Below, in pieces: positions 5,323 to 42,151 of a stretch of DNA of 64,000 nt. Position 1 is the first letter of the stretch, and each line of letters starts with the position of its first letter. Source of the stretch: a virus; IMG/VR virus record IMGVR_UViG_3300007512_001108, positions 1 through 64,000 of that record, one strand, 5' to 3'. The translations under genes and the position numbers were made by a program. The notes beneath the pieces are model-generated. The model saw nothing but the letters and a program-made list of their open reading frames with translations. It ran no database searches and was not told the origin of the DNA.

Positions 5323-6672
5323 TTACTTTTTTACCTTCTTTCTTTTCTTATATTTAGTCTTTGGAGAACTCATTTTTGTACTTTTCTTTGGGGTGTTTTT
5401 CTTTTTTTGTTTCAATTCTTTCTTCTTTTTAGATTCTTCCATTTTATACATTACATCTCTTTGATGCTTTCTTTGTTGTTCTTGGAATTGAGATTTTTGA
5501 ATCTCATCAACTTTTTGATTATACATTTTAAGATTATTATCAATTCTTTCCTTTTCGGTGTCTGGGAATATATTATCTTCAAGAAGTTTTTTACAAGCAA
5601 TTTGACCACCTATGTAATCGTGACTATAAAAAGCAGTTGCCGCTAATTCGTCTAATGATTGCCATTTATACACATCATCGGATATAAAGAGAATATCGTG
5701 TTCTGGATATGGTATTTGACATGCTCTTTGAGCAAATAAATATGCGTGATTAAATTTTCCTGCTTGTCTATACAGTCTTGATAATTGATGTAAAGGTTCT
5801 GCACGAATTGGACGATATGCATATGCATCTAAGAATTTTTGTTGTATTGTTTCCCAAGGTTCATCCTTCAATACAGAACAGATTGCAACACGGAATAAAG
5901 AGTAATATGCTTCTTCTTCCCACCCACCAAGTTCTGCTCTCTTTTGATATGCTTCCATTGCATTGTCTACTTGCTGTGAATCAAAATATGATTGAGCAAG
6001 ATAGAACCAGTAACGATGATTGTCTGGGTCATAATATGGACTGTCTTCGTTGGTAACAGCATCAAGAAGCATATCAGCATCTCTTGAATACTTTTCTACA
6101 GGGTCTATACCTACATTTCTTGCACCCAATGTTCGTGCTTCGATGTGGTAATCTCCATAAACTCTTTGTTGGGAAAATGGTTTCTTATCACAATCAGCAT
6201 ATTCGTGGAGAATTCCAGTATAGTGCCAACCAATTCCTGTTTTGAATATTTGATTTCTCCACCAAGTAAAATCACCTCTCTGAATACACAAAGAATAAAC
6301 ATCATACTGTTTCATATTGGGTGGAAATTGGAAATCCCCATCAACAAAGTCATCCGCATCGATAACCCAAGCAAAGTCTGCTTTACCATCACAATTACGA
6401 AGTGATTCAGTTCTACTACCAATTCCTTTTGGAGAATCACCAAACCCTTTCCAATCTGAACGATATACTTTGCCTGGAACTCCATTCTTTTCCATAAACT
6501 TTTCTATCAGTTCGGGAGTTCCGTCAGTAGAACCTGTATCTGTGATATCATACCTATCGATATAAGGAAGCATAGACCTTAGACACTCTTCGATAATATG
6601 TGTTTCGTCTTTTACAATCATACAAAGAGTAATTGTAATATCTGGTGGTGTTATTTTTTTCACTTTACTCAT
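5323..6672 (-). CDS. Family 2 glycosyltransferase with TPR-like helices and lysine-rich tail
   Basis: Predicted to transfer a sugar from a nucleotide donor. The N-terminal GT-A domain (about residues 12-120) shows TLCMIVKDETHIIEECLRS, DTGSTDGTPE (45-54) and DADD (105-108), the usual GT2 donor/metal pattern. Residues about 200-370 are alpha-helical and TPR-like (FYLAQSYFDSQQVDNAMEAY and following). The last 50 residues are dominated by Lys, which could bind nucleic acid or an acidic surface. 449 aa is long for a bare GT2 domain because of these additions. It is the last gene of the glycan run. Its ATG lies 1 nt after the stop of the dehydrogenase gene. Acceptor and sugar are unknown. Confidence 0.85.
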   Translation of the reverse strand: MSKVKKITPPDITITLCMIVKDETHIIEECLRSMLPYIDRYDITDTGSTDGTPELIEKFMEKNGVPGKVYRSDWKGFGDSPKGIGSRTESLRNCDGKADFAWVIDADDFVDGDFQFPPNMKQYDVYSLCIQRGDFTWWRNQIFKTGIGWHYTGILHEYADCDKKPFSQQRVYGDYHIEARTLGARNVGIDPVEKYSRDADMLLDAVTNEDSPYYDPDNHRYWFYLAQSYFDSQQVDNAMEAYQKRAELGGWEEEAYYSLFRVAICSVLKDEPWETIQQKFLDAYAYRPIRAEPLHQLSRLYRQAGKFNHAYLFAQRACQIPYPEHDILFISDDVYKWQSLDELAATAFYSHDYIGGQIACKKLLEDNIFPDTEKERIDNNLKMYNQKVDEIQKSQFQEQQRKHQRDVMYKMEESKKKKELKQKKKNTPKKSTKMSSPKTKYKKRKKVKK

Positions 6673-6673
6673 A

Positions 6674-7522
6674 TCAAACTTCTTCCTTTTCTTTTAATAC
6701 AGCAGATTCGAAATCTGCCCAATCCCATTTATTTCTATAATTTTTATTCTGTTCCCAAATAGACTTTAAAATGATAGGGTCTAACTTATATTCTTCCATA
6801 GTATGTATTAGAGAATTTATATCTTTTGGGAAACAAGTTCCTCCAAATCCATAATTTCCATCTGGTCCTGGAACATCATAATGACTGTTCCCTATTCTGT
6901 TATCAGAAATTACACCCTTTACAATTGTATCGTAATTGATATTATTTATTTCGTCTACTAAAACTCTCATTTCGTTGAATATCATTACTTTTGATGCAAG
7001 AAAACAATTTGCAAAGTATTTTACACATTCTGATTCTGTTGATTTCATTGTAATTACTGGTATATCTGGAAAACACATTCTATAAAAGTCGTAAAGTGGT
7101 TCTATCCATTTTTTCTTTCCGCCAATTACATGTCTGTCTGCATTTATAAAATCTTCATTTGCTTTTGCCGCTGTCAAAAATTCTGGATTATGAATTATTT
7201 TTAGATGTGGATATTTTTCTCTCAACCTTTCTGTTGTTCCGATTGGAACGGTAGACTTAATTATGAAAATACCCTCACATATTGAAGGTAGTGTCGAAAA
7301 GAATTTTTCAACGATGGAAAGGTTGCACTTACCCCCTTCTATATCTACCATTGGTGTTGGAAGACAAACAAAAACAAATTCAGAAAATACTGCATCGTTA
7401 TAGTGGTGTGTACATCTTTCTGGTAGCGAATCATATATTCTAATATCTGCAAAATCCTTTAATCCGTTTGCAACTGCTCCTCCAACAAATCCATTTCCTA
7501 TAATTCCTATTGTTTTTTTCAT
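6674..7522 (-). CDS. Short UDP-glucose/GDP-mannose dehydrogenase family protein
   Basis: Family members oxidise C6 of a nucleotide sugar to the uronic acid using two NAD+. The Rossmann motif GNGFVGG is at residues 9-15, STVPIGTTE near 90-98, and the catalytic Cys is Cys230 in GFGGTCFPKD. The conserved central helix (ECVKYFANCFLASKV) is present. Length is 282 aa against about 390-450 for the family: the C-terminal UDP-binding domain is essentially missing, yet the catalytic Cys block is intact. Short forms of this kind occur in viruses. It overlaps the upstream exostosin-like gene by 4 nt (translational coupling). Substrate, UDP-glucose or another sugar, cannot be told from sequence. Confidence 0.85.
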   Translation of the reverse strand: MKKTIGIIGNGFVGGAVANGLKDFADIRIYDSLPERCTHHYNDAVFSEFVFVCLPTPMVDIEGGKCNLSIVEKFFSTLPSICEGIFIIKSTVPIGTTERLREKYPHLKIIHNPEFLTAAKANEDFINADRHVIGGKKKWIEPLYDFYRMCFPDIPVITMKSTESECVKYFANCFLASKVMIFNEMRVLVDEINNINYDTIVKGVISDNRIGNSHYDVPGPDGNYGFGGTCFPKDINSLIHTMEEYKLDPIILKSIWEQNKNYRNKWDWADFESAVLKEKEEV

Positions 7523-8469
7523 TGTATATAATCTTTCAAATGTTTAACAAATCCCACTGGTGTAAAATATTCTTTCCATATATTTCTATTTTTTACTTGT
7601 ATCTCTAAAATCCTACTTGCACTAAGATTTTTATGATAATCTACTAATATGTCTACAATATTATTTATATCTGATTCTGGTATAATTAATGCTTGTTCTT
7701 TCCAATCTATAATATTTTCATATGGTAATACACAGTCTGTATCTAATAATACTGGTATTCTTCCGTGAGATAAAACTTCTCCAAATCTAAAGGAAAAATT
7801 ACCTGCTCCTCTACAACAAAAACCATATAATGAATTTCTTATATTTGAATTGAATTCTTGTATTGCAATATGCTTTGGAATTCCTGGCGCCCAAAATCCA
7901 TTTCTTATAATAAAGTTAGTTTGTACCAAATCAGATTCGTGTAATAATCTAAGTCCTTCTACTCTGGTAGGGTGTGTAAGTCCACCACAAAACGAAATAT
8001 CTGGTTTTTCGTTTTTAAATTGTGATGTATTGCTTTGAAAGAAATCTGCACAGAATGGAGGTATTGCATATTCGTTTTTCTTTTTTGTGGATTTATAAAA
8101 TGATGTTCTGAGAATAATACACTCATCTCCTAATGGTAGTTCCTCTGCGGAATCGTCATTAAATATTACCATTATTTTCTTTCCAGCAGATTTTGCTTCT
8201 TCAATATACGGAGTAGCATCTGAATGTCCATATTTAAACGGAAGTAAGACCAAATCACAATCTTCAATAGAAGTTAATTTAATATAATTTTTTGCATCTC
8301 TTATAAGAATTTCAAAAACTGGTTTTCTATTATCTGGTGTATCATCTCGATTCAGATATTTGTGTTGTTGTTTTTCTGTTAGAAATGGAACAACTGCTGG
8401 CAATTCTCCTGTTGCACACAACCAATCGTCATTGAAGTTTTTTAAATTGATATAAACTTTAGTTTTCAT
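7519..8469 (-). CDS. Exostosin-like (GT47-type) glycosyltransferase
   Basis: The C-terminal half carries the exostosin-family signature: a Gly-rich turn followed by SFRFGEVLSHGRIPVLLDTD (about residues 225-245), where the Glu and the GRIPV step are typical of the donor-binding region. The N-terminal half (DCDLVLLPFKYGHSD, IMVIFNDDS) resembles the first Rossmann-like lobe of a GT-B fold. No transmembrane anchor is visible, unlike eukaryotic exostosins. It overlaps both neighbours by 4 nt. A second exostosin-like gene lies at 13434-14351. Sugar donor and acceptor are unknown. Confidence 0.7.
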   Translation of the reverse strand: MKTKVYINLKNFNDDWLCATGELPAVVPFLTEKQQHKYLNRDDTPDNRKPVFEILIRDAKNYIKLTSIEDCDLVLLPFKYGHSDATPYIEEAKSAGKKIMVIFNDDSAEELPLGDECIILRTSFYKSTKKKNEYAIPPFCADFFQSNTSQFKNEKPDISFCGGLTHPTRVEGLRLLHESDLVQTNFIIRNGFWAPGIPKHIAIQEFNSNIRNSLYGFCCRGAGNFSFRFGEVLSHGRIPVLLDTDCVLPYENIIDWKEQALIIPESDINNIVDILVDYHKNLSASRILEIQVKNRNIWKEYFTPVGFVKHLKDYIQ

Positions 8470-9599
8470 AACGCATTTAACTCTTTACACAACACTTGTA
8501 CCATCTCTGGTGTTACATCTTTATGGTTTCCAACATAAATACAATTCTTATGAATTTCATTGACATTTTTATCAAATATGTCTTGCTTTATCTTATCCAT
8601 AAATGGATGTTCATATAGATTTCCTGCAATACAGGGACGATACTCAACACCAATTTCTTTTAATTTGTCTTTAATTTGTTGTAGATTATTTCTTCTTGTG
8701 AAAATAGGAAATGCAAAATTACTACATCCTGTCGAAACAAAGTCTGTTTTATAAAGATTGTTATCAAGATTTTTGATAAATGTATAATAATTATCATTCC
8801 TGTGTTTAATAGATTCATCTAGATGTGGAAGTTGCATCAAACCAAGTTTTGCGTGTAAGTCTGTGTTTCTTACATTAAATCCATCACGCAAGAAAGTAAA
8901 CAGAGGGTCTACTCTATCGCACTTTCTTTTTTCTTGTTCTTCTTTTGGAAGTTCTCTCAAAAGTCCGTGTGAACGAAGAAGCAACATTTCATGATACAAA
9001 TCTTTATCATCTGTACAAATCATACCACCTTCAATTGTTGTCATGTGGTGTCCATAATAAAAAGAAAATGAAGAAGCAATACCGTGCGTTCCTACTTTCT
9101 TTCCTTTAAACTCTGCACCGTGGGACTCACAACAATCTTCTATCAATCCGACTCTATACTTAGAACATAATTCGAGCAACTCATCTGACAGTGCAGAGAA
9201 TCCTAAAAGATGTGTAAGAAGTAAATAGTTTGGTCTTTGCGTCTTGAAAATATATTCCAAGTTATCCAAGTCAGGACCAAAGTTAGTCAAGTCTACATCA
9301 CATAATTGTAAATTTGAAAATTGTATGATGGGAGAAACAGCAGTAGACCAAGTACATGCTTGAGATATCCATTTAGTTCTAGCAACACCATCTGACAATG
9401 CTCTTGCTATAAGAAGATTTGCGGATGAACCAGAATTGACATAAACAGAATATTTACAACCCAACCATTCTGACCATTCTTTTTCAAATTGTCTAACAAC
9501 ATTACCCTGAGTTATTTTACTTGAGTTACAAACAAAATCTCCAAGAACATTTCGTTCTTCTTGAGTAATTGCATCATCTGTCATCAATTTCCAATTCAT
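8466..9599 (-). CDS. PLP-dependent 3-dehydratase-like enzyme of the DegT/ColD/RfbH group
   Basis: The fold is DegT/DnrJ/EryC1 aspartate-aminotransferase type: NSGSSANLL (55-63), DVDLTNFGPD, VGLIEDCCESHG (150-160). At the position of the PLP-binding Lys the protein has His184 (FYYGHHMTTIEGG), whereas the adjacent paralogue has Lys183. This Lys-to-His change marks the 3-dehydratases: ColD, acting on GDP-4-keto-6-deoxymannose, and the RfbH/E1 type, acting on CDP-4-keto-6-deoxyglucose. No [2Fe-2S] Cys cluster of the E1 type is obvious, which favours ColD-like chemistry. The phage also encodes a Gmd that could supply the GDP substrate. It overlaps both neighbours by 4 nt. The specific product, such as a colitose precursor, is inference. 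Confidence 0.75.
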   Translation of the reverse strand: MNWKLMTDDAITQEERNVLGDFVCNSSKITQGNVVRQFEKEWSEWLGCKYSVYVNSGSSANLLIARALSDGVARTKWISQACTWSTAVSPIIQFSNLQLCDVDLTNFGPDLDNLEYIFKTQRPNYLLLTHLLGFSALSDELLELCSKYRVGLIEDCCESHGAEFKGKKVGTHGIASSFSFYYGHHMTTIEGGMICTDDKDLYHEMLLLRSHGLLRELPKEEQEKRKCDRVDPLFTFLRDGFNVRNTDLHAKLGLMQLPHLDESIKHRNDNYYTFIKNLDNNLYKTDFVSTGCSNFAFPIFTRRNNLQQIKDKLKEIGVEYRPCIAGNLYEHPFMDKIKQDIFDKNVNEIHKNCIYVGNHKDVTPEMVQVLCKELNAL

Positions 9600-10693
9600 A
9601 ATAAAAATTCCTCTAACTTATTTATAACTCTCATTTGATTTTCTTCTGATAAGTTATAAGAAGATGGCAAAGAGATTCCGCTATCAAATATACTCATACT
9701 TGTTTCATAATTTCCAACTTTTCTAATTTCGTTATTATAACACGGTTGTGCATTTAACGGATAGAAAAATTCCCTAGATTGTATATTATTTTCTTTTAGA
9801 AAATCCATTAGTTTATATTTTTCGCAAGAAAGAAAAGATGTAAACCAATGAACAGGAGTACAGTTCTTTGAATCTTCAATTGGAACAAACCCAGAATTTA
9901 ATGAACCTAATTTTTCATAATACAAATCATGAATCTCTTTCTTTCTAGAAATAATATCTGGCAATTTCTTTAGTTGTGAAATACCAACTGCCGCTTGCAT
10001 CTCCGTAAAGCAAAAATTATATCCTATGTGATGATGTTTGAATGTGCCCTTACCATCTCTTCCGTGATTTTTAAGACGATAACATGCGTTACGGAGTTCC
10101 TCATCGTCTGTGAGAACAACACCACCTTCTCCACAAGTAATAGTTTTGTTTCCATAGAAAGATAGAATACCCAAATCACCAAAAGTACCTACATGTTTTT
10201 CTTTATATAAAACACCAACTCCCTGTGCGGCATCTTCTATAACTTTAATATCATGTAATTTTGCAAATTCTAAAATTGCGGTCATATCTGAACTCTGTCC
10301 ATACAGATGAACTGGCATAATTGCTTTTGTTTTGTTTGTAATGCATTCTTCTGCTTTTTTGATATCTATCTGAAAAGTTTTTGTACCCACTTCACACAAT
10401 ACAGGTGTTGCACCTGTCATAATGACAGCATTGGCAGTTGCAATAAATGTAATGTTTGGCACGATTACTTCGTCACCTTCTCCAATACCGAGTGCTTTCA
10501 AACAACAGAATAAAGCGGCAGTTCCATTCGTCATAGCAACTGCATACTTTGAACCTGTCATTTCACAAATCATTTCCTCGAATTCTTTTGTTAGATTATG
10601 CTCGACAACATATGTTGAATCGACTACTCGTTTCAACTCGTCAAGTTCTCTATTGTCAATCCAAGGTTCAATTTGCGTTATAAAGTTGGTCAT
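9596..10693 (-). CDS. DegT/DnrJ/EryC1 sugar aminotransferase (perosamine-synthase-like)
   Basis: PLP enzyme expected to transaminate a keto-sugar nucleotide. Family features: TNGTAAL (55-61), VIVPNITFIATANAV (77-90), HLYGQ (129-133), Asp154 in VIEDAAQ (PLP pyridine nitrogen), Lys183 in SFYGNKTITCGEGG (Schiff base), and the GYNF...AAVGISQL segment. 365 aa is normal for the family. It resembles GDP-perosamine synthase, whose substrate is the product of Gmd (also in this window), but other 4-keto-sugars are possible. The start has no strong Shine-Dalgarno and overlaps the upstream gene by 26 nt. Confidence 0.8.
   Translation of the reverse strand: MTNFITQIEPWIDNRELDELKRVVDSTYVVEHNLTKEFEEMICEMTGSKYAVAMTNGTAALFCCLKALGIGEGDEVIVPNITFIATANAVIMTGATPVLCEVGTKTFQIDIKKAEECITNKTKAIMPVHLYGQSSDMTAILEFAKLHDIKVIEDAAQGVGVLYKEKHVGTFGDLGILSFYGNKTITCGEGGVVLTDDEELRNACYRLKNHGRDGKGTFKHHHIGYNFCFTEMQAAVGISQLKKLPDIISRKKEIHDLYYEKLGSLNSGFVPIEDSKNCTPVHWFTSFLSCEKYKLMDFLKENNIQSREFFYPLNAQPCYNNEIRKVGNYETSMSIFDSGISLPSSYNLSEENQMRVINKLEEFLL
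9619..9626 (-). promoter_or_regulatory. Possible intragenic T4-type late promoter (TATAAATA)
   Basis: An exact TATAAATA on the minus strand, 20 nt before the start of the dehydratase-like gene. This spacing is like the stronger candidates in the window. It lies inside codons for Ile-Asn-Lys near the end of the aminotransferase gene, so chance is quite possible in AT-rich DNA. Confidence 0.3.
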
Positions 10694-11054
10694 ATGATTT
10701 TTGTTCTCTCACATCAGATTCATAGTATTCATTAATTCTTTTCTTTATCAAGAATCTTTCATCATTATATTTTGCATTAAGTCTTGCGAATTGTATAAAT
10801 TCATCATCGAATTCTTTCTTGCTTTCTTTATCTCTAAATCCAGATTCTGTATCCCATATTTTTATATTAATGTCTTTTAATTCATCATATAATCTTCCTT
10901 TTATTTTTACACCATCATCCTTTAGTGCTTTTTCTAGAATATCCTTTTCTCCTTGAATATAAAATAATCTAGACTCGTCAGAAATTCTTTCCAACTTAAT
11001 ATCCAATATGGTTATCTTATCAAAAATTTCACCAATTGCAACTTCTACTTTCAT
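10668..11054 (-). CDS. DUF6165-like protein of the glycan cluster
   Basis: 128 aa. The start, VEVAIGEIFDKITILDIKLERI, matches my memory of the DUF6165 family pattern (vSvGELiDKiTILEIKleRI), small proteins found with glycosyltransferases and polysaccharide genes. The rest is charged and alpha-helical with no catalytic motif visible. The 3' end overlaps the aminotransferase start by 26 nt and the 5' end overlaps the methyltransferase by 4 nt. Function unknown; a partner or regulator of glycosylation enzymes is possible from context only. Confidence 0.6.
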   Translation of the reverse strand: MKVEVAIGEIFDKITILDIKLERISDESRLFYIQGEKDILEKALKDDGVKIKGRLYDELKDINIKIWDTESGFRDKESKKEFDDEFIQFARLNAKYNDERFLIKKRINEYYESDVREQKSYDQLYNAN

Positions 11055-11695
11055 ACTATATCTCCAAACTTATTCTCTTTGTATGCGACCAAATCTTTTT
11101 CTTCTATTGATTCTAATTTCCAGTCACTGGGAAGAAGTTCATTCAACTCCAAAAATGAAAAGTTCCAATTTTCACTGTCGTCAATCATTCCTTCCCATTT
11201 ATAGCGGTCGCATGTTGTTTTTTCTACCTTGTGTGGTGTTCTTGCCAGATAAATGATATTGCAAAATTCAAACATTCTAGAAAAGCACTCCTTTGGTTTC
11301 CTTAGCATTGTGAATGTACTATCGAAGTAAATGACATCTTGTTTGTTTCCTATGATGTCCCCAATTCCATCTTCCTCAATGTCAAATAAATGAAATGTTG
11401 CTTTCTTGTTTTCTGAAAAATGATTATATGCAAATTCAATTGCACTTGGGTTTACATCAATACCAATATATGTCTTTAAATTTTCTGGCAAGAAATTCAA
11501 AAGTCTACCACAACCACAACCAACATCGACAACAGAGAAGTATTCTTTGGAAAATGTCCTAGACAACCAATTCAAGAATAATTTATGTGGTTCATTTGAA
11601 TGAAAATGGCATGGAAGTCCGTCTGAATCTTTTCCATATATTTCCTCAAACACCTCTTCTCTGTACCATTGATTATCTCTTGCCCGTTCGTTCAA
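11051..11695 (-). CDS. Class I SAM-dependent methyltransferase (TTG start)
   Basis: Motif I is clear: VVDVGCGCGRLL (55-66), followed by the acidic residue after strand 2 in YIGIDVNPSAIEFA (76-89). The substrate is probably a small molecule or glycan, given that it lies among glycosyltransferases. The start is TTG at 11695: the TTGA overlaps the stop of the upstream gene, AAGGGG lies about 6 nt upstream, and no in-frame ATG exists before residue 130. 214 aa is usual for a single-domain enzyme. It may O-methylate a sugar. Confidence 0.8.
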   Translation of the reverse strand: MNERARDNQWYREEVFEEIYGKDSDGLPCHFHSNEPHKLFLNWLSRTFSKEYFSVVDVGCGCGRLLNFLPENLKTYIGIDVNPSAIEFAYNHFSENKKATFHLFDIEEDGIGDIIGNKQDVIYFDSTFTMLRKPKECFSRMFEFCNIIYLARTPHKVEKTTCDRYKWEGMIDDSENWNFSFLELNELLPSDWKLESIEEKDLVAYKENKFGDIV

Positions 11696-12609
11696 ATTAT
11701 ACCCCTTTCTTCTAATTTCATATTTGTTAATCTCTGTAGTAGTTCAAACTTAGAACCTTCTTCAATTGGTAGATGCTTCTTACTTGAATTGTGCCAGTGC
11801 CAAGCAAATGCTTCAAGATAAAGATTATCATCTGCATAACCATTGTTTGCAAACCAACCTGCTTCTACATTTTCACTAAGTTCCTTGTCTTTCTTGCTGA
11901 TTAACCATTCGGTGTTGAAGAAAGGTGATGGGAATATTGTATATTCGTATCCTCTTCTCCAAAGAGATGCAAATAATTCTTTACCCCAAATGGTAGTACC
12001 ACCAATAATTGGCATTACTTTAAGTTCTTTAAGAAGTTCATACGAAAATTCACTTTCCTTCTTGAGTGCAATAACCGTTGCACATGCACCTTGATTTGCA
12101 AAGTCTGTTTCCGAACCCCACTGGTACATATACTCTTGGTCAAGAAGACATTTGAAGTCACGAAGGAAGATAATATCCATATCAATCCACACACCACCGT
12201 ACTTATGAAGTGCAAGCAAACGAAGCAAATCACTTTGTAGATAATGTTTATCATCTTCGGATGTAAGTTTTTGTACCTCATCCTCAATGATTGTTCCCTT
12301 TGCTTCTTCTAATCCATCCCACACCCTCAAGTCAAGGTATTCTTTATACGGTTGAATTCTAGGATTGTCTTCAATACAATAATCTGACCATACTATTAGT
12401 TTTGTTTTTTCTAGGTCTTGTGTTGCAAGAAAAGACTTAATGCATTCAAGTTCTTTATCGGTTCTTACTTCGGTATAAACATGAAAGTTTGTTACTTCTT
12501 CGGGATACTCACAACTACAATCACAAAGTTCATCAAGAAATTCAAGACACGCTTCATAATCTTTATAATATTCTGGGTGTGTTTTAAAACTCATTTCAAT
12601 CATCATCAT
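11692..12609 (-). CDS. GT32/OCH1-type glycosyltransferase (DXD sugar-binding family)
   Basis: The diagnostic region is QSDLLRLLALHKYGGVWIDMDIIFL (about 125-149; DXD = DMD at 143-145), as in capsular and mannosyltransferases of the Gly_transf_sug family. The C-terminus has the late WHW motif (AFAWHWHNSSK). No membrane anchor is visible. The first codons contain three consecutive ATGs. AAGGA is best spaced (8 nt) for the third, at 12603; 12609 is the longest form. It overlaps both neighbours. Donor unknown. Confidence 0.8.
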   Translation of the reverse strand: MMMIEMSFKTHPEYYKDYEACLEFLDELCDCSCEYPEEVTNFHVYTEVRTDKELECIKSFLATQDLEKTKLIVWSDYCIEDNPRIQPYKEYLDLRVWDGLEEAKGTIIEDEVQKLTSEDDKHYLQSDLLRLLALHKYGGVWIDMDIIFLRDFKCLLDQEYMYQWGSETDFANQGACATVIALKKESEFSYELLKELKVMPIIGGTTIWGKELFASLWRRGYEYTIFPSPFFNTEWLISKKDKELSENVEAGWFANNGYADDNLYLEAFAWHWHNSSKKHLPIEEGSKFELLQRLTNMKLEERGII

Positions 12610-13462
12610 TTTCCTTTATATAAGACATACAAAAGTCTGTCGCTTGCAGTTTTCTATTTAATAATTTAGAAATGGCGATTGCTCCAACTAAATCATCTTC
12701 TCTGTCCATATCATCAAATATAAACCATACATCTTTATTTATTTGTAGTTTTTCTTCTTTCAAAAGTTCATACATTTTACTTCTTTTTCCCCCTGCTGGT
12801 CCATCTACAAAAATCAAATCATAAGTTTTATCTTTCAAGAACTCATTTACCAAATCAATATCATACCAATCGTCTTTAATGGGAGCGTGTAAATACTCTG
12901 AATCATATTCACCCACCCAATCTTCATCTTCTTCTATTGAAATCATTTTGAAATGTTTTGAGAGAATTTCTGTACCTTTACCACTACCAAATTCAAGGAT
13001 TGTAGAACCCTTTTCAAAATTTGATATAATATATTCTATTGTTTTGTTATTAGCGGTCATTTCCGTTTTATTTATCATCCATCCGTGATTTGTCATCATT
13101 AACTGATAATGTGGAGTACTTTGTGCGAACATTAATGATTCAGCATCGACTGTATATGTTGGGGAGAATTCATTCTCACATATAGATACACCCAGTTCTT
13201 CAATAAACTCCATTGCATTCCTTTCAGACAAAAATAACAAATCTGTAAGTGATATTGTGGATGAACCATCATCTGAAAGAGTTGGTAATGTTACTACAAG
13301 AGTATCTGAAATGTCCTCACCGTGTTCATTTAAAATTCTTTTATCTTTAAACTTAAAAGAATCTTTGTGCATACCTAAAACATTGCGACCGTCCCAAATA
13401 TATTCATCTTTATTTTCAACATAATCATTCATACTAAACCAACTGCTTTTTTTTACATACAT
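12596..13462 (-). CDS. SAM-methyltransferase-like protein of the glycan cluster
   Basis: The C-terminal half has a Rossmann methyltransferase pattern: STILEFGSGKGTEIL (153-167), MISIEEDEDWVGEY (173-186) and DLIFVDGPAGGKRSKM (215-230). This resembles proteins annotated as FkbM-like or class I methyltransferases in phage and O-antigen loci. The N-terminal 140 residues are not recognised. An alternative start, ATG at 13432, lies 1 nt after the stop of the upstream gene and avoids the 29-nt overlap. Neither start has a good Shine-Dalgarno. Confidence 0.6.
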   Translation of the reverse strand: MYVKKSSWFSMNDYVENKDEYIWDGRNVLGMHKDSFKFKDKRILNEHGEDISDTLVVTLPTLSDDGSSTISLTDLLFLSERNAMEFIEELGVSICENEFSPTYTVDAESLMFAQSTPHYQLMMTNHGWMINKTEMTANNKTIEYIISNFEKGSTILEFGSGKGTEILSKHFKMISIEEDEDWVGEYDSEYLHAPIKDDWYDIDLVNEFLKDKTYDLIFVDGPAGGKRSKMYELLKEEKLQINKDVWFIFDDMDREDDLVGAIAISKLLNRKLQATDFCMSYIKENDDD

Positions 13463-14351
13463 CCATTATCTTGTCTGCGTGTGTTTTTACACTTAGAAAC
13501 TTTTCTACATTTGATAAGTCATGTTCTTCTGATGATACCCTTTTAAAGAATTCTTCATCTACCTCATCCCAACTTTTTACAAAATATCCTGGTAGATTAT
13601 ATTCTTCAAATAATCTCTTAACCGTACAATCAATTGTAATTGGAATACACCCCATCAATAAAGATTCATAGAGTCTATGAGTATCATTTCCGCTTCCTTG
13701 AATACAGAGTGTAAATCGATATGAACCAATCAATTTCATATACGGTTCAATTGAAAGTTTACCTTGCATTAGGTGGGTGTATTCATTATTCTTTAAACTG
13801 TTGATAATATTTTGTCTTTCAGGATTTGTAGATTGGTCGTGCCAAGGAACAAAAAATAAATTTGCTTTTTCTTCAAACGGTTTTGTTTCTCTTCGTAATT
13901 TCTTTAAAACATTTTGATTTGCAGAAAGTCTATTTGGTTCTGCAAATCCTATAGGAAGTGCATGAATCTTTTCGTGTTCTTCATTTGGAGGATTGGTACA
14001 AAACCAATTTTGAAGATATTCGTTCTCTAAAATTTTCTTATAAGATTCTGGATTATCTCCATCTCTTCCAATTTGATAAGCAGAACATCCTGTTACTAAA
14101 CTAAAAGGAGTTTTAATTTTATCTAAAAAATTAGATTGAAATTCTTCGTGTATGATAAAATCTGTTTTGGCAAATATAATATCATTTTCTTTCATATTTT
14201 CTATTTCTGCTGGTTGAAAAAGTTCTTTATCGTGTAGTCGTTTTACTCCCCAGTTTACATAAAATTCTGGTGGATAGTCTATACAGTGGTCTGCAACCAA
14301 TGGCATCCAATTATAACAAACAAGTCCACTTTCTAGTTTAAATTCTGGCAT
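13434..14351 (-). CDS. Second exostosin-like (GT47-type) glycosyltransferase
   Basis: The C-terminal donor-site region is LIGSYRFTLCIQGSGNDTHRLYESLLMGCIPITIDC (about 205-240), typical of exostosin-type enzymes: an acidic residue in RLYESLLMG followed by the CIPI step. The N-terminal lobe includes DIIFAKTDFI and FSLVTGCSAYQIGRDGDNPESY. 305 aa, soluble. ATG at 14351 has a clear GAGGTG Shine-Dalgarno 7-8 nt upstream. It shares only the general motif with the exostosin-like gene at 7519-8469, so the two probably transfer different sugars. Confidence 0.7.
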   Translation of the reverse strand: MPEFKLESGLVCYNWMPLVADHCIDYPPEFYVNWGVKRLHDKELFQPAEIENMKENDIIFAKTDFIIHEEFQSNFLDKIKTPFSLVTGCSAYQIGRDGDNPESYKKILENEYLQNWFCTNPPNEEHEKIHALPIGFAEPNRLSANQNVLKKLRRETKPFEEKANLFFVPWHDQSTNPERQNIINSLKNNEYTHLMQGKLSIEPYMKLIGSYRFTLCIQGSGNDTHRLYESLLMGCIPITIDCTVKRLFEEYNLPGYFVKSWDEVDEEFFKRVSSEEHDLSNVEKFLSVKTHADKIMDVCKKKQLV

Positions 14352-15075
14352 CGTATTTCACCTCGTTCCATTCTCTTACTGTGCTGTTTCCCAAATATCC
14401 AGAAGCACCTTCTCTAAAATTATGAAAGAACAATTCATCTGTTGTATCTAGAATCTCTACGAGTGACCTAAAGGCACTTTCCATGCAATGAATTTGTTTT
14501 GCTTCTTCTAATACCATTCCAAAATGGAATAGGTTTTCTGTTATATCATTTCTAATAATTTTGATATCTTTTGTTCCTGCGATATGTTCCAATTCTTCAA
14601 TTGGAATCTCAAAACCACGATTGGCATCATCGTGAACAAAAATATATTCTTCGTTGTCTGGATTTAATTTTTCATATACCCTTTTTTCTTCTTCTTCATC
14701 TCTTTCATAGTAAAAATCATCGAATCTTCTTTCGTAGGGTATATCCATTTGTGAATAAAATATTTCTGCACACCCCATTCCTAATTTTTCTTCTTGTCCC
14801 CAAGGATAGTAATCGTGACCAACTTTAATAAAATTAATAATATCGTTTTCTGATATGAAATTACTTATATAATTATATTCGTCTTCATTGGGAACTTTAA
14901 TTATATTAATATTTGATTCATCTCTGTACATATATTTTATCATATCAAAATATTTTTCTTTTGCAAATACATTTACGCTATCAAAATCATATTCTTCAAG
15001 AAAAATTCTTATCATTGCGTTACAGTCTATGTGGTCACCTAATCCCAAATGGTGGTGTACATATAATTCACTCAT
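14338..15075 (-). CDS. Putative GT-B-like protein, heptosyltransferase-like architecture
   Basis: 245 aa, not firmly assigned. The N-terminus YVHHHLGLGDHIDCNAMIRIF recalls the glycine loop at the start of GT9/GT-B enzymes that handle nucleotide sugars. The second half has EEYIFVHDDANRG followed later by QIHCMESAFRSLVEIL, the order of the donor-binding lobe in such enzymes. The start has a strong AAGGAG Shine-Dalgarno. It overlaps the next gene by 14 nt and belongs to the coupled glycan run. Assignment is an inference from architecture and context. Confidence 0.5.
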   Translation of the reverse strand: MSELYVHHHLGLGDHIDCNAMIRIFLEEYDFDSVNVFAKEKYFDMIKYMYRDESNINIIKVPNEDEYNYISNFISENDIINFIKVGHDYYPWGQEEKLGMGCAEIFYSQMDIPYERRFDDFYYERDEEEEKRVYEKLNPDNEEYIFVHDDANRGFEIPIEELEHIAGTKDIKIIRNDITENLFHFGMVLEEAKQIHCMESAFRSLVEILDTTDELFFHNFREGASGYLGNSTVREWNEVKYDARI

Positions 15076-15728
15076 ACCAAAGCACTCCTTAAAACTTCTC
15101 TATGTTCTTCGTTTATATTATCATTTTCATCATATACTTCTCCAATAAATTCAAGATTATTTCTTTTGGTTGGAAATGGTTTTCTTTCAAAAAACTCATC
15201 GTGTACAAATGAATCGTCCTTTACTAGTGGGTAGATATAATCTCTTAAAAATATTTGGTCTACTTGCCAAAAGTCACCCTTCTCAATAGAATCTATTAGT
15301 GATGACATTTCTGATAATGTTCCTTTTTTACATCCCCACATTCCTCCTAGAATGGGTGCGCCGTGCCAAGGATGGTCACGCATAATATGAAATCCCTTAT
15401 CACTTTCCAACCACTCATCTATTGCATCTTTTTCTCTTTGTGTTAGTCTTGAGTCTGTATCTCTTGAAAGTACCACATCAACATCATCTTCGGAACAAGG
15501 ATGAAATCTCCAGAACATTCCAGACCAATCACCATCTTCGTTCATTCTAACGAGTTGTACATTTGGTTTATTCTCTAACTGTGTTAGTATGTTTTCTGGA
15601 ACAGATTTTCCGATATAAAATCTACAAATCCATTCTGGAAACAATTCTTCTGCTATATCAGCATTTTTAATTGCACCAATCGTATACTTGGGATTGTTTC
15701 CCCATAAACTAAAAGCAATAATTTTCAT
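15072..15728 (-). CDS. Putative GT-A glycosyltransferase
   Basis: 218 aa. It begins with KIIAFSLWGNNPKYTIGAIKNADIAEELFPEW and has VDVVLSRDTDSRLTQREKDAIDEWL (about 85-110). The DTDSR is a good DXD-type metal and nucleotide-sugar site. A conserved block (DHPWHGAPILGGMWGCKKG) follows. Such proteins are common in virus and O-antigen glycan loci. An upstream TTG at 15734 would overlap the preceding gene. ATG at 15728 is preferred because it is 2 nt past that gene's TGA stop with AGG 6 nt upstream. Confidence 0.65.
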   Translation of the reverse strand: MKIIAFSLWGNNPKYTIGAIKNADIAEELFPEWICRFYIGKSVPENILTQLENKPNVQLVRMNEDGDWSGMFWRFHPCSEDDVDVVLSRDTDSRLTQREKDAIDEWLESDKGFHIMRDHPWHGAPILGGMWGCKKGTLSEMSSLIDSIEKGDFWQVDQIFLRDYIYPLVKDDSFVHDEFFERKPFPTKRNNLEFIGEVYDENDNINEEHREVLRSALV

Positions 15729-15730
15729 AA

Positions 15731-16432
15731 TCAACCTGAAATAATTTCTAAAATACTATCCATATCAAAATTTTTATTCTTTCTTTCTTCAAAAACCTTT
15801 CCATCAATTGCATACATTTCTGCATTTTCATTTCTTGCGTGTAATTCGTCAAATGGTTGGGGTGTCCAATCGTGTCTAAAAATACAAACTGGTGAGGTAA
15901 TTAATTTTCCCATACCTTGACAAACCATAGTCATTTCGTTATCTGCATAAACAGATGTATAATCTGGATGATAGACATAACCAAATGCTTTATATAAGTT
16001 CCAACCCAAAACAGGTAAAGTCATTAACAAATCTGTTCTTGGTCGTAATCCATCAAAGAATTTAATTGCACCATCCATTGATGGAAAATGTTGTTCCATA
16101 CCTTGCATAATTATATCATCAAAATCTGGGAAACAAGGAATCATATCATCCGAAACCAATAATAAAACATCACCCTCTTCGTTTTCAAGATTGGCATTAC
16201 ATGCTTCTATTTTTGATTTTGAATCTCCGTAGTGATAAACCAAATCTACATCTAGGTCATCCATCCACTTACGAATTTCATCATTGTTCATAGTTTCATC
16301 ATCATTATCTAAAGTAATGACAAACCGAACATCGTGTTTTCCAGATAGCAAGTCGATACTCTTTCCTAAAATATGTTTAAATTTATCAGGACGGTTTCTG
16401 GATGCTAACTTGTATATTAATTTTCTTTTCAT
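15731..16432 (-). CDS. GT2-like glycosyltransferase (GT-A fold)
   Basis: 233 aa. The N-terminus YKLASRNRPDKFKHILGKSIDLL, then VRFVITLDNDDETM and GDVLLLVSDDMIPCFPDFDDII (about 87-108), follows the GT2 order: strand, glycosyltransferase loop, and an acidic DDM motif in place of DXD. The C-terminal region contains YADNEMTMVCQ, consistent with the catalytic acidic residue area. It is the first gene of the glycan run after regA, with a 22-nt gap. No membrane segment. Sugar and acceptor unknown. Confidence 0.65.
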   Translation of the reverse strand: MKRKLIYKLASRNRPDKFKHILGKSIDLLSGKHDVRFVITLDNDDETMNNDEIRKWMDDLDVDLVYHYGDSKSKIEACNANLENEEGDVLLLVSDDMIPCFPDFDDIIMQGMEQHFPSMDGAIKFFDGLRPRTDLLMTLPVLGWNLYKAFGYVYHPDYTSVYADNEMTMVCQGMGKLITSPVCIFRHDWTPQPFDELHARNENAEMYAIDGKVFEERKNKNFDMDSILEIISG

Positions 16433-16454: not shown

Positions 16455-16871
16455 TTAGTGTTTATTTCCTATATGATATTTGGGACACAATTCCCAATCA
16501 CCCTTTTCTTTGTGTGAAATAATCTTTATTTGTGCTATAGAAGCAACTGGTTCTTCTGTCTGGTCTTGGTCTACAATTTCTAATAATTCCCAATCCTCTA
16601 ACAAATTGGCAATAGTATTTCTTCTAGCAATATCATTTTCTTCTATGTTTGTCGGAAGTCCATCCAGTGCAAATAATTCTTTAAAATGCACAATATAATA
16701 TTTACCCTTTTTATGAAGGATATGACAGGACTGATATAATTTTTTTTCTTTTCTAGAAGAAACGCCTATTCTTGTTAGGGTTTCTTTAATTTTTAAGAAG
16801 TCTTCTGATTCAAATAATTCAATTTCAACCAAGTCTTCTATTTTTATTTCTGTTTTTTCCATAACTATCAC
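16455..16871 (-). CDS. regA: RegA translational repressor
   Basis: Homologue of T4 RegA, which binds around the start codons of early mRNAs and blocks their translation. Matching blocks include SEDFLKIKETLTRIG, LYQSCHILHKKGKYYIVHFKELF, ARRNTIANLLEDWELL and CPKYHIGN at the C-terminus. T4 RegA starts near VEIEL here, so the product carries a 12-15 residue N-terminal extension if the GTG (16871, SD AAGG) or ATG (16862) is used; a TTG at 16832 would match the T4 start. As in T4 it lies next to clamp-loader gene 62, but a sugar epimerase is inserted and gene 43 does not follow. A late-type promoter lies 41 nt upstream. Confidence 0.93.
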   Translation of the reverse strand: MIVMEKTEIKIEDLVEIELFESEDFLKIKETLTRIGVSSRKEKKLYQSCHILHKKGKYYIVHFKELFALDGLPTNIEENDIARRNTIANLLEDWELLEIVDQDQTEEPVASIAQIKIISHKEKGDWELCPKYHIGNKH

Positions 16872-16911: not shown

Positions 16912-16919
16912 TATTTATA
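16912..16919 (-). promoter_or_regulatory. Candidate T4-type late promoter before regA
   Basis: Minus-strand AGTATAAATA, matching the candidates before genes 18, 19, 22 and 23. It overlaps the last codons of the epimerase gene and would give a leader of about 35-40 nt for regA and then the glycan run. Confidence 0.6.
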
Positions 16920-17832
16920 CTTTTTGTGCATTACAGGAAGCAATCCAATCTTCAAGAGAAATAGTTGGTTTCCAATCTAAAAGCATTTCTGCTTTTTCAA
17001 TATTTGCCAGAGAGTATCTAACCTCTCCTAATCTTTGTGGGATGTGAATATAGTCTGCGTTTTTCCCTCCAACCATATCCACCAATTCTAGAATATTATA
17101 ATTTTTTCCAGTACCAATATTAATAATTTCACCGAATACTTTATTGTTTTCTGTTGTGGCTGCTTTTATATTTGCTTCTACCACATCACCGACATATGTA
17201 AAATCTCTTCTTTGTAGTCCATCACCAACCACCGTCATTGGTTCTCCGTCTTCGTATTGACGGAAGAATAATCCTATAACTGGAGCATATTGTCCTTTTA
17301 CTGGTTGTTTTTCTCCATACACATTAAAATATCTAAATGTTACAGTTTCCATCCCATACAGGTTGTGAAACATTTTACAAAGTTCTTCTCCTGCACACTT
17401 GGTTATGGAATATGCATTTAAACAATCGGTATTCATATCTTCTATTGAAGGTATTTCATTCTTCACACCATACGAAGCAGATGTAGAGGAATATACAAAT
17501 CTCTTTACGCCATTTTCTTTTGATGCTTGAAGAACATTACAAGTTCCATACACATTTGTTTTTGCAGTAAGTGTTGGATTGTGTATAGCGGGTTGAATTC
17601 TTGCTTCTGCGGCTAAATGAAAAACACAATCAACCCCATTAAAAAGGGGTTCTATTTTATCGTAATCACAAATATCATATTGATAATTTTCTGAATTTGA
17701 GTTCCAATAAAACGATTCGTGACAATCTGTAGATTCATTGTCTATTACAATTACCGAATGTCCTAGTTCTAATAGTCTGTCAACTATTGTAGAACCAATA
17801 AATCCTGCTCCACCTGTAACTAATGCTTTCAT
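16915..17832 (-). CDS. NAD-dependent sugar epimerase/dehydratase (SDR, GalE-like)
   Basis: Extended short-chain dehydrogenase acting on a nucleotide sugar, most likely a C4 epimerase of the UDP-glucose/UDP-GlcNAc type. Rossmann GGAGFIG is at 7-13, HLAAEARIQ at 72-80, the catalytic Ser region YSSTSASYG at 114-122, Tyr-X3-Lys YSITK at 141-145, and RYFNVYGEKQ follows. 305 aa is normal. It overlaps gene 62 by 4 nt and separates it from regA. It links the replication operon to the glycan genes. Confidence 0.87.
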   Translation of the reverse strand: MKALVTGGAGFIGSTIVDRLLELGHSVIVIDNESTDCHESFYWNSNSENYQYDICDYDKIEPLFNGVDCVFHLAAEARIQPAIHNPTLTAKTNVYGTCNVLQASKENGVKRFVYSSTSASYGVKNEIPSIEDMNTDCLNAYSITKCAGEELCKMFHNLYGMETVTFRYFNVYGEKQPVKGQYAPVIGLFFRQYEDGEPMTVVGDGLQRRDFTYVGDVVEANIKAATTENNKVFGEIINIGTGKNYNILELVDMVGGKNADYIHIPQRLGEVRYSLANIEKAEMLLDWKPTISLEDWIASCNAQKV

Positions 17833-18212
17833 TTTTTACCACCTGTATATAAATATTTTGTCATTTCTTCAATGTCAGAATCTGCAAACATATTTACAAC
17901 TTCTCTTGCTTTTCTATCAGAATATCCATAATATTCTTTTATTACATTTACCTTTTGACATTCTTCATTCTTTAACCATTTACTATAACGCTTTCTTTTT
18001 CTAATTATATTTAACAGATAGTCAAAATGCATTTTCTTATCTATTGAAGGACAAGAATTCATTTCATTAACATAAAATATAGTATCTGGAAAATAAGAAA
18101 GACACCTATTAATAACAAAAGGCGTATATTTCTTTTCTACAAACTCATCCTCTGTATCAAGTAATGTTTCCTTTGTGTGATTTATTGCTTTTAGATATTC
18201 AGATAATTTCAC
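17829..18212 (-). CDS. 62: Clamp loader small subunit gp62
   Basis: Small subunit of the clamp loader, which with gp44 opens and loads the gp45 clamp onto primer-template DNA. The sequence follows the short marine T4-like gp62 form (127 aa against 187 in T4): PFVINRCLSYFPDTIFYVNEMN (about 31-52), the HFDYLLNIIRKRKRYSKWLK core, and a C-terminal YGYSDRKAREVVNMF segment. Start is GTG at 18212, four-base overlap (GTGA) with the co-chaperonin stop, SD GGAG 5 nt away. Position next to 44 supports the call. Confidence 0.85.
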   Translation of the reverse strand: MKLSEYLKAINHTKETLLDTEDEFVEKKYTPFVINRCLSYFPDTIFYVNEMNSCPSIDKKMHFDYLLNIIRKRKRYSKWLKNEECQKVNVIKEYYGYSDRKAREVVNMFADSDIEEMTKYLYTGGKK

Positions 18213-18553
18213 TTAATCTCCACATCATCTCCGATGACAGCAACAATATGTTGTCTTCTTGTTAAAATGAATGGTCCCATATCGTGAAACCCTGCGTGTT
18301 TATCGTGCAGAATCCTGTCACCCTCTTTGAAATCTACAGGATAATAATTACCATTATCGTCTGGAATTCCTTCTGCTATAGAAATAACAACACCATCACC
18401 AAAACGGTCATGTTCTCTTTCGTTGTATATAATTCCTGCATCGGTCTGGGTTTTCTTTGGAGTTGGTTTAATTGCTACCATATCACCAATAGGTTTGAAT
18501 GCCTGACCGTCTTCTATTTTAGCACTACCTAGTGCATATCGTTTGTCTACCAT
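18209..18553 (-). CDS. GroES-like co-chaperonin (gp31-type)
   Basis: Ten-kilodalton chaperonin cofactor likely to cap host GroEL, as T4 gp31 does for folding gp23. 114 aa. GroES features: FKPIGDMVAIKPTPKK (about 19-34), a mobile loop TDAGIIYNE, VVISIAEG, a beta-hairpin with YPVDFKEGDRILHDKHAG, and the C-terminal IVAVIGDDVEI. The AGIIY tripeptide region would be the GroEL contact. It sits between genes 44 and 62 and has its own late-type promoter, which would time it with head assembly. It could be GroES acquired from a host or a diverged gp31. Confidence 0.85.
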   Translation of the reverse strand: MVDKRYALGSAKIEDGQAFKPIGDMVAIKPTPKKTQTDAGIIYNEREHDRFGDGVVISIAEGIPDDNGNYYPVDFKEGDRILHDKHAGFHDMGPFILTRRQHIVAVIGDDVEIK

Positions 18554-18571: not shown

Positions 18572-19525
18572 TTATTTATACTCACATTCTAACATCAATT
18601 CCGTTAAACAAGCAGTTAAATTAATTTCGTGGTCTGCAACAAATGCTGATTTGTATTGATATTCAGAAATTATTAATACTGCTTGTGGAATTGACTGCGG
18701 TTTAAAGTATTCATATAGCCCATCATATATTTTTCTAAAGATATGAACTTGGTCATTATCTAAATTATCAACTACCCATTTTCTAACATTTGTGAATTCT
18801 TTTTCTTTCATTGATGTTATGAGGTTTTTAATTTTTATCTCACCGATTTGAGTAAGAATGCCAATGTCTATAGAACCTGCAACCGAATATCTTTGCAATT
18901 CATTAATTACCCTTCGGAAGTCTGGAAAATGTTTCATAATTAATTCTGCTAAAACCTTATCATCCGAAGGTATATTCTCTCCATCAAGAATGTACTTGAT
19001 TCTTTCCATAAATTCATTAGCCAATGTAGGTTTTTCTTGCTTTGGTATCTTGAATTCTATACAGGTACATCGAGAATGAAGTGGTTCTATAATTCTGTTC
19101 TTGTAATTGCAAGTAAGAATAAACCTACAATTACCACTGAATTCTTCGATGAATCCACGAAGTGCAGGTTGTGTAGATTGTGCGTTTGAGTAATCAAATT
19201 CGTCAAGTATTACTACTTTCTTTCCACCAGATATAGAAACTGTACTTGCAAAATTACGAATCTTTGTTCGGAGTGTATCGATGTTTCCGTCTTCTGAACA
19301 GTTAATTACAATATAGTCTGCATCTAACTCCTCGCACATTGCTCTTGCAATTGTTGTTTTACCACATCCTGCTCCACCAGATAAAAGAAGATTTTGAACT
19401 TCTCCAGAATCAACCATTCGTTGAAATGTTTCTTTGATATCTTCTGGAAGAATACAATCTCCAATAGTCTGTGGTCTGTACTTTTCTACCCACAAATATT
19501 CTTTAGTTTCTGTTTCTGTAATCAT
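18572..19525 (-). CDS. 44: Clamp loader large subunit gp44 (AAA+ ATPase)
   Basis: RFC-like AAA+ ATPase that loads the gp45 sliding clamp. Visible: LWVEKYRPQTIGD (11-23), Walker A GGAGCGKTT (50-58), Walker B VVILDEFD (104-111), sensor-1 FILTCNYKNRI (135-145), arginine-finger SRC (151-153), and the C-terminal helical collar. 317 aa matches T4 gp44 (319). Its 3' end overlaps a late promoter serving the co-chaperonin. The normal 45-44 adjacency is broken by gmd and fcl-like genes. Confidence 0.95.
   Translation of the reverse strand: MITETETKEYLWVEKYRPQTIGDCILPEDIKETFQRMVDSGEVQNLLLSGGAGCGKTTIARAMCEELDADYIVINCSEDGNIDTLRTKIRNFASTVSISGGKKVVILDEFDYSNAQSTQPALRGFIEEFSGNCRFILTCNYKNRIIEPLHSRCTCIEFKIPKQEKPTLANEFMERIKYILDGENIPSDDKVLAELIMKHFPDFRRVINELQRYSVAGSIDIGILTQIGEIKIKNLITSMKEKEFTNVRKWVVDNLDNDQVHIFRKIYDGLYEYFKPQSIPQAVLIISEYQYKSAFVADHEINLTACLTELMLECEYK
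18573..18580 (-). promoter_or_regulatory. Candidate T4-type late promoter before the co-chaperonin
   Basis: Minus-strand AGTATAAATA, then AAGAAGAAAGGA (Shine-Dalgarno) and the ATG at 18553. The leader would be only about 13 nt. It overlaps the end of gene 44. The match extends to the same AG before TATAAATA as at genes 18, 19 and 23. Confidence 0.65.
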
Positions 19526-19534
19526 AATATAATC

Positions 19535-20542
19535 CTATTTCGTTGTATCATACGGTGTCCAAACATCTTTTATTGCTTTATAATAATTTTCATCATTAAA
19601 AATCATATCATCCATTAAAGTTTCAAATGTGTATTCTGGTTTCCATCCTAGTTTTTCGCGAATTTTGGTAGAATCTCCTTTAAGGTCGTGAAGTTCTTCT
19701 GGTCTTAAATATTTTTCATCTAATACAACATAGTCTTTATAATTAAGTTGAAGTCTGTTAAAAACATATTCACAACAATCACGAACACTATGTGAAATAC
19801 CAGTTGCACAACAATAATCTTCTGGTTTATCTTCTTGCAACATCATCCACATTGCTTTTACATAATCCTTTGCGTGTCCCCAATCTCTTCTTGCTTCAAG
19901 ATTTCCCATACGAAGTTCTGTTGCTTCTCCTGCTTTAATAGCAATTGCACCCTGTACAATCTTACTGGTTACAAAATTAGAACCTCGTCTTGGTGATTCG
20001 TGATTGAATAATATACCATTACTAATATGCATACCATAAGAATGTCTATAATTTCTTACTATATTAAATGCATAAACTTTTGCACATCCATAGGGACTTA
20101 CAGGTAGCATTGGTGTTGTTTCTCTTTGGTATCCATCATCGTCAATACAGTTTCCAAACATTTCCGAAGAACTTGCTTGATAAATTCTTGCATCTGGACA
20201 TACTAAACGACACGCTTCTATAACTTTTAATACACCAACAGCATCTGCTTCTGCTGTATATATTGGCACATCAAAACTAATTCTCACATGAGATTGTGCG
20301 GCTAAATTGTATACTTCGTCTGGTTTAACTTTTTGTAATATATTAATTAAAGATGATAGGTCTGTCAAATCACCATAATATAAATGAAGTTGGTCATAAC
20401 AACTATCGAGTCTTGCAGTTTGATTTTCAGCAACTGAATTTCTTTTAAGAATTCCGTGTACCTCATATCCCTTTTCTATAAGAAATTCTGCGAGATAAGA
20501 ACCGTCTTGTCCGTTAATACCTGTAATTAATGCTTTTTTCAT
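19535..20542 (-). CDS. gmd: GDP-mannose 4,6-dehydratase
   Basis: Converts GDP-D-mannose to GDP-4-keto-6-deoxy-D-mannose, the branch point to GDP-fucose, perosamine and colitose. Rossmann TGINGQDGSY (7-16), NLAAQSHVRISF (79-90), SSSEMFG (124-130), Tyr151-X3-Lys155 (SPYGCAKVYAFN) and LFNHESPRRG are all characteristic of Gmd. At 335 aa it is slightly shorter than bacterial Gmd (about 370) but the active site is complete. It overlaps the fcl-like gene by 4 nt, as in bacterial O-antigen operons, but lies within the phage replication block. Confidence 0.93.
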   Translation of the reverse strand: MKKALITGINGQDGSYLAEFLIEKGYEVHGILKRNSVAENQTARLDSCYDQLHLYYGDLTDLSSLINILQKVKPDEVYNLAAQSHVRISFDVPIYTAEADAVGVLKVIEACRLVCPDARIYQASSSEMFGNCIDDDGYQRETTPMLPVSPYGCAKVYAFNIVRNYRHSYGMHISNGILFNHESPRRGSNFVTSKIVQGAIAIKAGEATELRMGNLEARRDWGHAKDYVKAMWMMLQEDKPEDYCCATGISHSVRDCCEYVFNRLQLNYKDYVVLDEKYLRPEELHDLKGDSTKIREKLGWKPEYTFETLMDDMIFNDENYYKAIKDVWTPYDTTK

Positions 20543-34723: not shown

Positions 34724-34731
34724 TATTTATA
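34724..34731 (-). promoter_or_regulatory. T4-type late promoter before gene 23
   Basis: Minus-strand AGTATAAATA in the 92-nt gap between 22 and 23, giving a leader of about 65 nt before the gp23 start. Position before the most highly made late gene supports it. Confidence 0.82.
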
Positions 34732-34743
34732 CTTTCTTGACAT

Positions 34744-39984: not shown

Positions 39985-39999
39985 CTTAATTTGTTGAAT

Positions 40000-42139: not shown

Positions 42140-42151
42140 CTTTCTTGTATT

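Follow-up and report, generated by a model that had tools for sequence, protein, structure and literature searches.

Genes of the glycosyltransferase operon

We analyzed a window of 64,000 bases (bases 1-64000 of the 74,681-base IMG/VR virus record IMGVR_UViG_3300007512_001108), whose minus strand carries, from 11051 to 16432, a run of seven genes, five for glycosyltransferases (GTs) and two for methyltransferases. The genes of the window that are given with coordinates below are all on the minus strand. At the low-coordinate end of the run lies an S-adenosylmethionine (SAM) methyltransferase, MT1 (11051-11695; Pfam Methyltransf_31, E = 1.2e-10), followed by a GT32-type GT of the GT-A fold with a DXD motif (11692-12609; PF04488, Gly_transf_sug, E = 8.5e-9; 24 viral relatives). 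The next gene encodes the SAM methyltransferase-like MT2 (12596-13462), which gave no match in a single-sequence Pfam scan; it carries the class I SAM motif ILEFGSGKGTE, and its family profile weakly matched class I methyltransferases (E = 0.0016). MT2 is followed by EXO1 (13434-14351), an exostosin/GT114-like GT of the GT-B fold whose profile matched protein A075L of Paramecium bursaria chlorella virus 1 (PBCV-1), and by a small GT-B enzyme, GTB (14338-15075). GTB had no match in a Pfam scan, and its AlphaFold2 model (mean predicted local distance difference test (pLDDT) score, 90.7) resembled GT9 heptosyltransferases in Foldseek (3tov, E = 3e-6; 1psw and 2h1h). GTx (15072-15734), also without a Pfam match, is a GT-A enzyme with an RDxDSR motif that is invariant in its family alignment; its model (pLDDT 84) resembled glycogenin and PBCV-1 A064R alike (Foldseek E about 1e-7), and its sequence profile was nearest to A064R, weakly (E = 0.017). 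With that sequence score and a fold equally near glycogenin, filing GTx as A064R was dropped. For the last gene, GTA (15731-16432), a single match, to phrog_14945 (E = 4e-7), suggests a GT2/GT-A-like GT, and a PDB profile search gave no match.

The profile match of EXO1 to A075L (E = 3.5e-38) spans positions 43-291 of 292, and no other glycosyltransferase was listed; the single sequence matched A075L with E = 2e-14 and fell below the cutoff for PF03016. Residues Arg158, Arg208 and Glu211 of A075L, which contact the donor phosphate (PMC11571054), align to EXO1 Arg179, Arg226 and Glu229, all invariant in the EXO1 family. The A075L catalytic base Asp73, on the other hand, aligns to Ala91, and an Asp stands there in only 1 of the 12 family members (locus L015). 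Because this base is replaced, we rejected the assignment of EXO1 to GT114 and call it GT114-like only. Scans of viral contigs for close relatives of EXO1 and MT2 were empty, and no homolog of EXO1, GTA (tblastn, E 1e-3) or the GT32-type enzyme (E 1e-5) was found in isolated phages.

The run is part of a larger unit. Twelve consecutive open reading frames (ORFs) run from 16432 down to 6674, nearly all of them with a 4-29-base overlap between the end of one and the start of the next; the series starts 22 bp past the gene for the translational repressor RegA (16455-16871; PF01818, E = 1e-44), and a gene for a GT2-family GT with tetratricopeptide repeats (GT2-TPR; 5323-6672; Glycos_transf_2, E = 6.6e-8, plus TPR; phrog_13126) follows 1 bp beyond it. 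The cassette, which thus reaches to 5323, adds to the run a DUF6165 protein, two DegT enzymes, a second exostosin-like GT (7519-8469; PF03016, E = 3.8e-11), the GT2-TPR protein and a short UDP-sugar/GDP-mannose dehydrogenase (6674-7522; PF00984 and PF03721; motifs GNGFVGG and GGTCFPKD). An N-terminal truncation of this dehydrogenase was rejected: GNGFVGG is present, and the missing part is the C-terminal domain only.

The original prediction, made from the letters of this DNA alone, had placed two exostosin-like, one GT32-type, two GT-A/GT2-like and one GT-B-like protein, with two methyltransferase genes, between 11051 and 16432. The region does hold five GTs and the two methyltransferases, and the second exostosin lies outside it. 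The cassette as a whole encodes seven GTs from several families; they fall into the GT-A and GT-B folds only and not into five or more folds, as had been proposed, so that "different families" is the correct description. The prediction that the set is soluble held: strong transmembrane segments are absent from the ORFs of the window, none of which exceeds 1.9 in 19-residue hydropathy. That the phage directs the making of an oligosaccharide, probably a methylated one, is a reasonable part of the earlier proposal of a branched, methyl-capped glycan. Its minimum of five residues is not warranted, because GTs and residues need not be equal in number, relatives mix their GTs and two of the GTs are fused in some of them.

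A tandem ColD-like and perosamine-synthase-like pair

Next to the DUF6165 gene lie two DegT-family genes. DegT1 (9596-10693) is a GDP-perosamine-synthase-like aminotransferase (its top match in the PDB was perosamine synthetase, 3bn1, E = 3.8e-69) that retains the pyridoxal 5'-phosphate (PLP) lysine, Lys183, invariant across the DegT1 family. DegT2 (8466-9599) is most similar to the 3-dehydratase ColD (best PDB match 2gms, E = 1.2e-51; 179 bits against ColD and 106 bits against E1). ColD is set apart from E1 and SpnQ by the lack of a [2Fe-2S] cluster, and no C-x-C was seen by eye in the DegT2 sequence. In DegT2 the PLP lysine is replaced by histidine (FYYGHHMTT): its GHHMTT aligns to HHIAT of ColD, and the histidine is found in the window copy and in nine other phage homologs (10 of 10). 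Histidine in place of the PLP lysine is a hallmark of nucleotide-sugar 3-dehydratases (PMC8987622).

The His-type DegT2 is present in 10 of 10 phage loci with the DegT1 clade, in tandem with it in nine. The DegT2 tree has two clades, one with the window copy, loci L003 and L010 and cyanophages (support 0.98) and one with the other phages (0.94), and the DegT1 proteins of these loci are 56-72% identical to the window copy. With two DegT2 clades beside a steady DegT1, it follows that one partner was exchanged and the pair itself retained, an argument that DegT2 and DegT1 act consecutively. Similar pairs occur in Prochlorococcus, Flavobacteriaceae and Pelagibacteraceae genomes, those of Prochlorococcus and Pelagibacteraceae in surface-sugar loci; the Pelagibacteraceae 3-dehydratase is more distant (SHQ motif), and in one SAR11 operon a hexapeptide acyltransferase precedes the pair. 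EXO1 was not found in the genomes with such a pair, to which that search was limited. A 12-row EXO1 profile run against 197 SAR11 genomes gave exostosin-like matches in 19 of them, all weak (33 bits at best); where the context was read, a sigma-70-type gene and not a sugar cluster lay next door, and the 197 genomes yielded no host context for EXO1.

Elsewhere in the window are genes for a GDP-mannose 4,6-dehydratase, Gmd (19535-20542; PF16363, E = 8e-121), and a GDP-L-fucose-synthase-like epimerase/reductase, Fcl (20539-21471; PDB 4bkp, E = 6e-86). Gmd, Fcl, DegT1 and DegT2 would meet in one compound, GDP-4-keto-6-deoxymannose, the predicted product of Gmd. We predict that the pair makes GDP-4-amino-3,4,6-trideoxymannose (GDP-3-deoxyperosamine) by ColD action and then transamination at C4. 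The name "3-deoxyperosamine" was not mentioned in the literature searched. ColD and GDP-perosamine synthase have reportedly been combined once in vitro for this sugar.

A different use of the same enzymes is conceivable, in which DegT2 and the Fcl-like protein lead to GDP-L-colitose, DegT1 separately makes perosamine and no trideoxy amino sugar arises. Fcl and ColC share related C5-epimerase/C4-reductase chemistry, and the cyanophages ACG-2014f and S-CAM7 also have Gmd, Fcl-like and ColD-like genes (the last of the window's clade) with GTs near a tail-fiber gene; unlike the window, their loci lack the aminotransferase partner and homologs of DUF6165, EXO1, GTB and GTx. This gene content rather suggests that ACG-2014f and S-CAM7 make colitose, and it speaks against the trideoxy sugar in the window. 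Set against it are the DegT1/DegT2 tandem, held together despite partner replacement, and an Fcl-like protein that is nearest to animal-type GDP-fucose synthase, and we find the colitose branch doubtful. It concerns the sugar made and would be compatible with either of the acceptors weighed below, lipopolysaccharide (LPS) or the virion. ColD-like genes with His for the PLP Lys are annotated as aminotransferase or hypothetical in isolated cyanophages (NC_026927.1, 162882-164075; NC_031927.1, 164022-165155).

Recurrence and genomic setting

The block GTx-GTB-EXO1-DUF6165-DegT1-DegT2 was found again in other viral contigs, often with the GT32-type gene alongside. Many independent viral contigs hold relatives of these genes as a block, and the grouping of the cassette is more than chance. 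In L021 (7979-9415) and L027 (9341-10729), a single gene encodes GTx and GTB as a two-domain fusion. A search for DNA near-identity among phages gave no match. The DUF6165 protein (10668-11054; PF19662, E = 7e-13) adjoins DegT1 in most relatives, and a PDB profile search with it gave chance-level matches only. DUF6165 is also found in 160 of the 197 Pelagibacteraceae genomes, usually as a single copy (for example L125, 1474-1869); in the ten SAR11 contexts read, where its identity to the window protein is 41-44%, it adjoins a gene whose sequence, judged by eye, is heptosyltransferase-like, with other GTs nearby.

The window has T4-like gene order and families (gp45, gp44, gp62, RegA, UvsW, UvsY, gp6 and others). 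Its major capsid protein (gp23) is nearest to that of Pelagibacter phage HTVC008M (53%), followed by cyanophages and marine viruses (50-52%), which makes SAR11 a likely host. Few biological entities of the ocean are as abundant as SAR11 bacteria and their phages. Gmd and Fcl are placed between gp45 and gp44, and an NAD-dependent UDP-sugar 4-epimerase-like gene (16915-17832; phrog_540, E = 8e-96; PDB 4zrm, E = 2.5e-52) lies between gp62 and RegA. HTVC008M has no sugar genes at the gp45/gp44 or gp62/RegA junctions, and downstream of RegA it has DNA polymerase where the window has the GT operon. By this comparison, sugar genes entered the replication block at three places.

The T4-type late-promoter core AGTATAAATA occurs six times in the window, where 0.52 copies are expected. 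One minus-strand copy, at 16912-16921, lies upstream of regA and the GT operon, and the other four on this strand are at 18573-18582, 34724-34733, 39977-39986 and 42132-42141; each of the five precedes a gene start by 20-81 nt, the genes being regA (with the operon behind it), a Cpn10 gene, the major capsid gene and another two of the structural module. Matches to sigma-70 promoters were set aside, being equal to those in shuffles (100 versus 97). The Cpn10/GroES-like gene (18209-18553), between gp44 and gp62, is possibly a gp31-like capsid-folding co-chaperonin.

Beyond the GT2-TPR gene, the cassette adjoins a tail-fiber-assembly-like gene (4819-5274; phrog_1084, E = 1.3e-17; phrog_3304, E = 1.7e-6), whose homologs adjoin GT2-TPR genes in L003 and L015, and a putative fiber or adhesin of 1412 amino acids (561-4799), near which the record ends. 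The putative fiber had no Pfam or PHROG match and no homolog in the fetched loci. A dUTPase gene (1-530) adjoins it at the record end, and dUTPase homologs are found near sugar clusters in several relatives. The replication block also encodes a DNA N6/N4 methylase (26927-27673; E = 1.8e-31) and a 534-amino-acid protein with a weak methylase match (23617-25221), and a 619-amino-acid protein of the structural module (47237-49096) has a concanavalin A-like lectin (Laminin_G_3) domain.

Destination of the glycan

The gene content, enzyme families, active-site residues, overlap within the operon, recurrence and lack of membrane proteins were observed directly, whereas the order of the sugars, what the pair makes, the acceptor and the benefit for the phage are inferred, in the following scheme. 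Gmd would convert host GDP-mannose to GDP-4-keto-6-deoxymannose, from which Fcl would make GDP-L-fucose and the ColD-like and perosamine-synthase-like pair would make GDP-4-amino-3,4,6-trideoxymannose. In the cytoplasm, the seven soluble GTs and the two methyltransferases would put together a short, capped oligosaccharide; the acceptor, a lipid-linked host glycan at the inner membrane face, could be exported by the host's own flippases. The altered phage receptor, displayed late in infection, might guard against superinfection and keep progeny from being lost on cell debris.

In this scheme we take the most likely acceptor to be a host lipid-linked glycan, the LPS core above all, at a probability of about 0.45. 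The GT9 heptosyltransferase-like fold of GTB points to LPS, as does the near-universal presence of DUF6165 in SAR11 beside a heptosyltransferase-like gene. Pfam scans and hydropathy revealed no membrane initiating transferase or transporter in the window, and no flippase, polymerase or membrane GT; because these last three are absent, a cytosolic acceptor of the LPS-core type fits and Gtr-type conversion does not. A late start of the operon would also suit receptor masking. The original prediction was right to leave the acceptor open, and host LPS, which it had listed as the outcome that would speak against it, is ranked first here, as it is in the passages on host-recognition clusters with LPS genes in pelagimyophages, where these are read as LPS-directed (PMC7029224).

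Several observations weigh against LPS as the acceptor. No gene links the glycan directly to LPS, about half of the phage genome is in hand, and the SAR11 host, likely as it is, is drawn from the gp23 match and not proven. EXO1 and GTx resemble viral enzymes that glycosylate capsids, and the late-promoter element before the operon also fits a virion acceptor. On that account the enzymes would act in the cytosol on tail-fiber or capsid proteins at assembly, as in PBCV-1, and so give the particle a glycan coat of its own. The EXO1 profile match to A075L/GT114 favors it, as does the likeness of GTx to A064R, which is weak by sequence profile and by fold equals that to glycogenin. PBCV-1 capsid GTs, like those of this cassette, are mostly soluble and cytoplasmic (PMC9614988). 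Moreover, the major capsid gene has the same AGTATAAATA element in front of it as regA and the operon, and GT2-TPR genes stand beside fiber-assembly or fiber-sized genes in several relatives, TPR domains being protein-binding. Yet the A075L catalytic base is lost in EXO1, GT114 enzymes are found in bacteria too (PMC11571054), the adjacency to fiber genes may reflect mere co-exchange of host-recognition genes, and no dedicated enzyme initiating a protein-linked glycan was identified. We regard glycosylation of the virion as less likely than that of LPS, but as a serious rival. Its fullest form, in which a natural late GDP-3-deoxyperosamine pathway (Gmd, ColD-like, Per-like) and chlorovirus-like cytosolic GTs would build the phage's own methylated glycan on virions, seems distinctly less probable again. 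The 1412-amino-acid protein had been named as a candidate acceptor, rich in Ser, Thr and Asn; its content of these residues is 24%, against 23-26% in the other large fiber-sized proteins of the record, which does not set it apart.

Hydroxymethylated bases of the phage DNA had also been named as a candidate acceptor. T4 glucosylates its own DNA, and the phage is of T4-like ancestry. Against this, the Pfam-scanned ORFs, which are part of the ORFs of a genome of which half is missing, included no T4-type DNA alpha- or beta-glucosyltransferase and no deoxynucleotide (dCMP) hydroxymethylase; a dUTPase, a dCMP deaminase and a DNA methylase are present instead, and the cassette GTs resemble glycan-building families. 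The proposal went unsupported, and we consider it hardly credible.

Sugar clusters near tail-fiber genes of marine T4-like phages are already known and LPS clusters have been published; such clusters are mostly annotated simply as LPS genes. What is new is a ColD/perosamine-synthase pair that phages and their likely hosts conserve, with exchange of the partner, and for which a precise product is predicted. A 4-amino-3,4,6-trideoxyhexose common to phage, SAR11 and Prochlorococcus loci would give a chemical handle on the products of these clusters and on the destination of the sugar. On host LPS, this sugar would account for a barrier to superinfection; on virions, it would parallel, in a bacterial virus, the self-glycosylation of giant viruses.

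Comparison with known systems

Gtr-type serotype conversion needs the membrane flippase GtrA and the membrane GT GtrB, and no such hydrophobic segment is encoded here; Wzx/Wzy and ABC (ATP-binding cassette)-type polysaccharide loci likewise require membrane components, of which the window has none. The PBCV-1 capsid set is closer, in that both systems combine soluble viral GTs, methyltransferases, an A075L-like GT and GDP-fucose genes; they differ in that Asp73 of A075L is not kept in EXO1 and the sequence likeness to A064R is weak. The pelagimyophage host recognition cluster (PMC7029224), in the passages that describe it, belongs to the same kind of T4-like, probable SAR11 phage and has GTs and sugar-nucleotide genes by tail-fiber genes in a hypervariable block. 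In the window, the GTs adjoin the fiber-assembly-like gene and the putative fiber, at the end of the record, and SAR11 is the probable host by the 53% gp23 match. The passages on the pelagimyophage cluster make no mention of an aminotransferase/ColD pair. For the pair itself, E. coli ColD, from the colitose pathway, and Caulobacter Per carry the same active-site signatures and are the closest solved structures. Unlike the separate ColD and Per, the phage enzymes form one tandem unit, which implies that they act consecutively.

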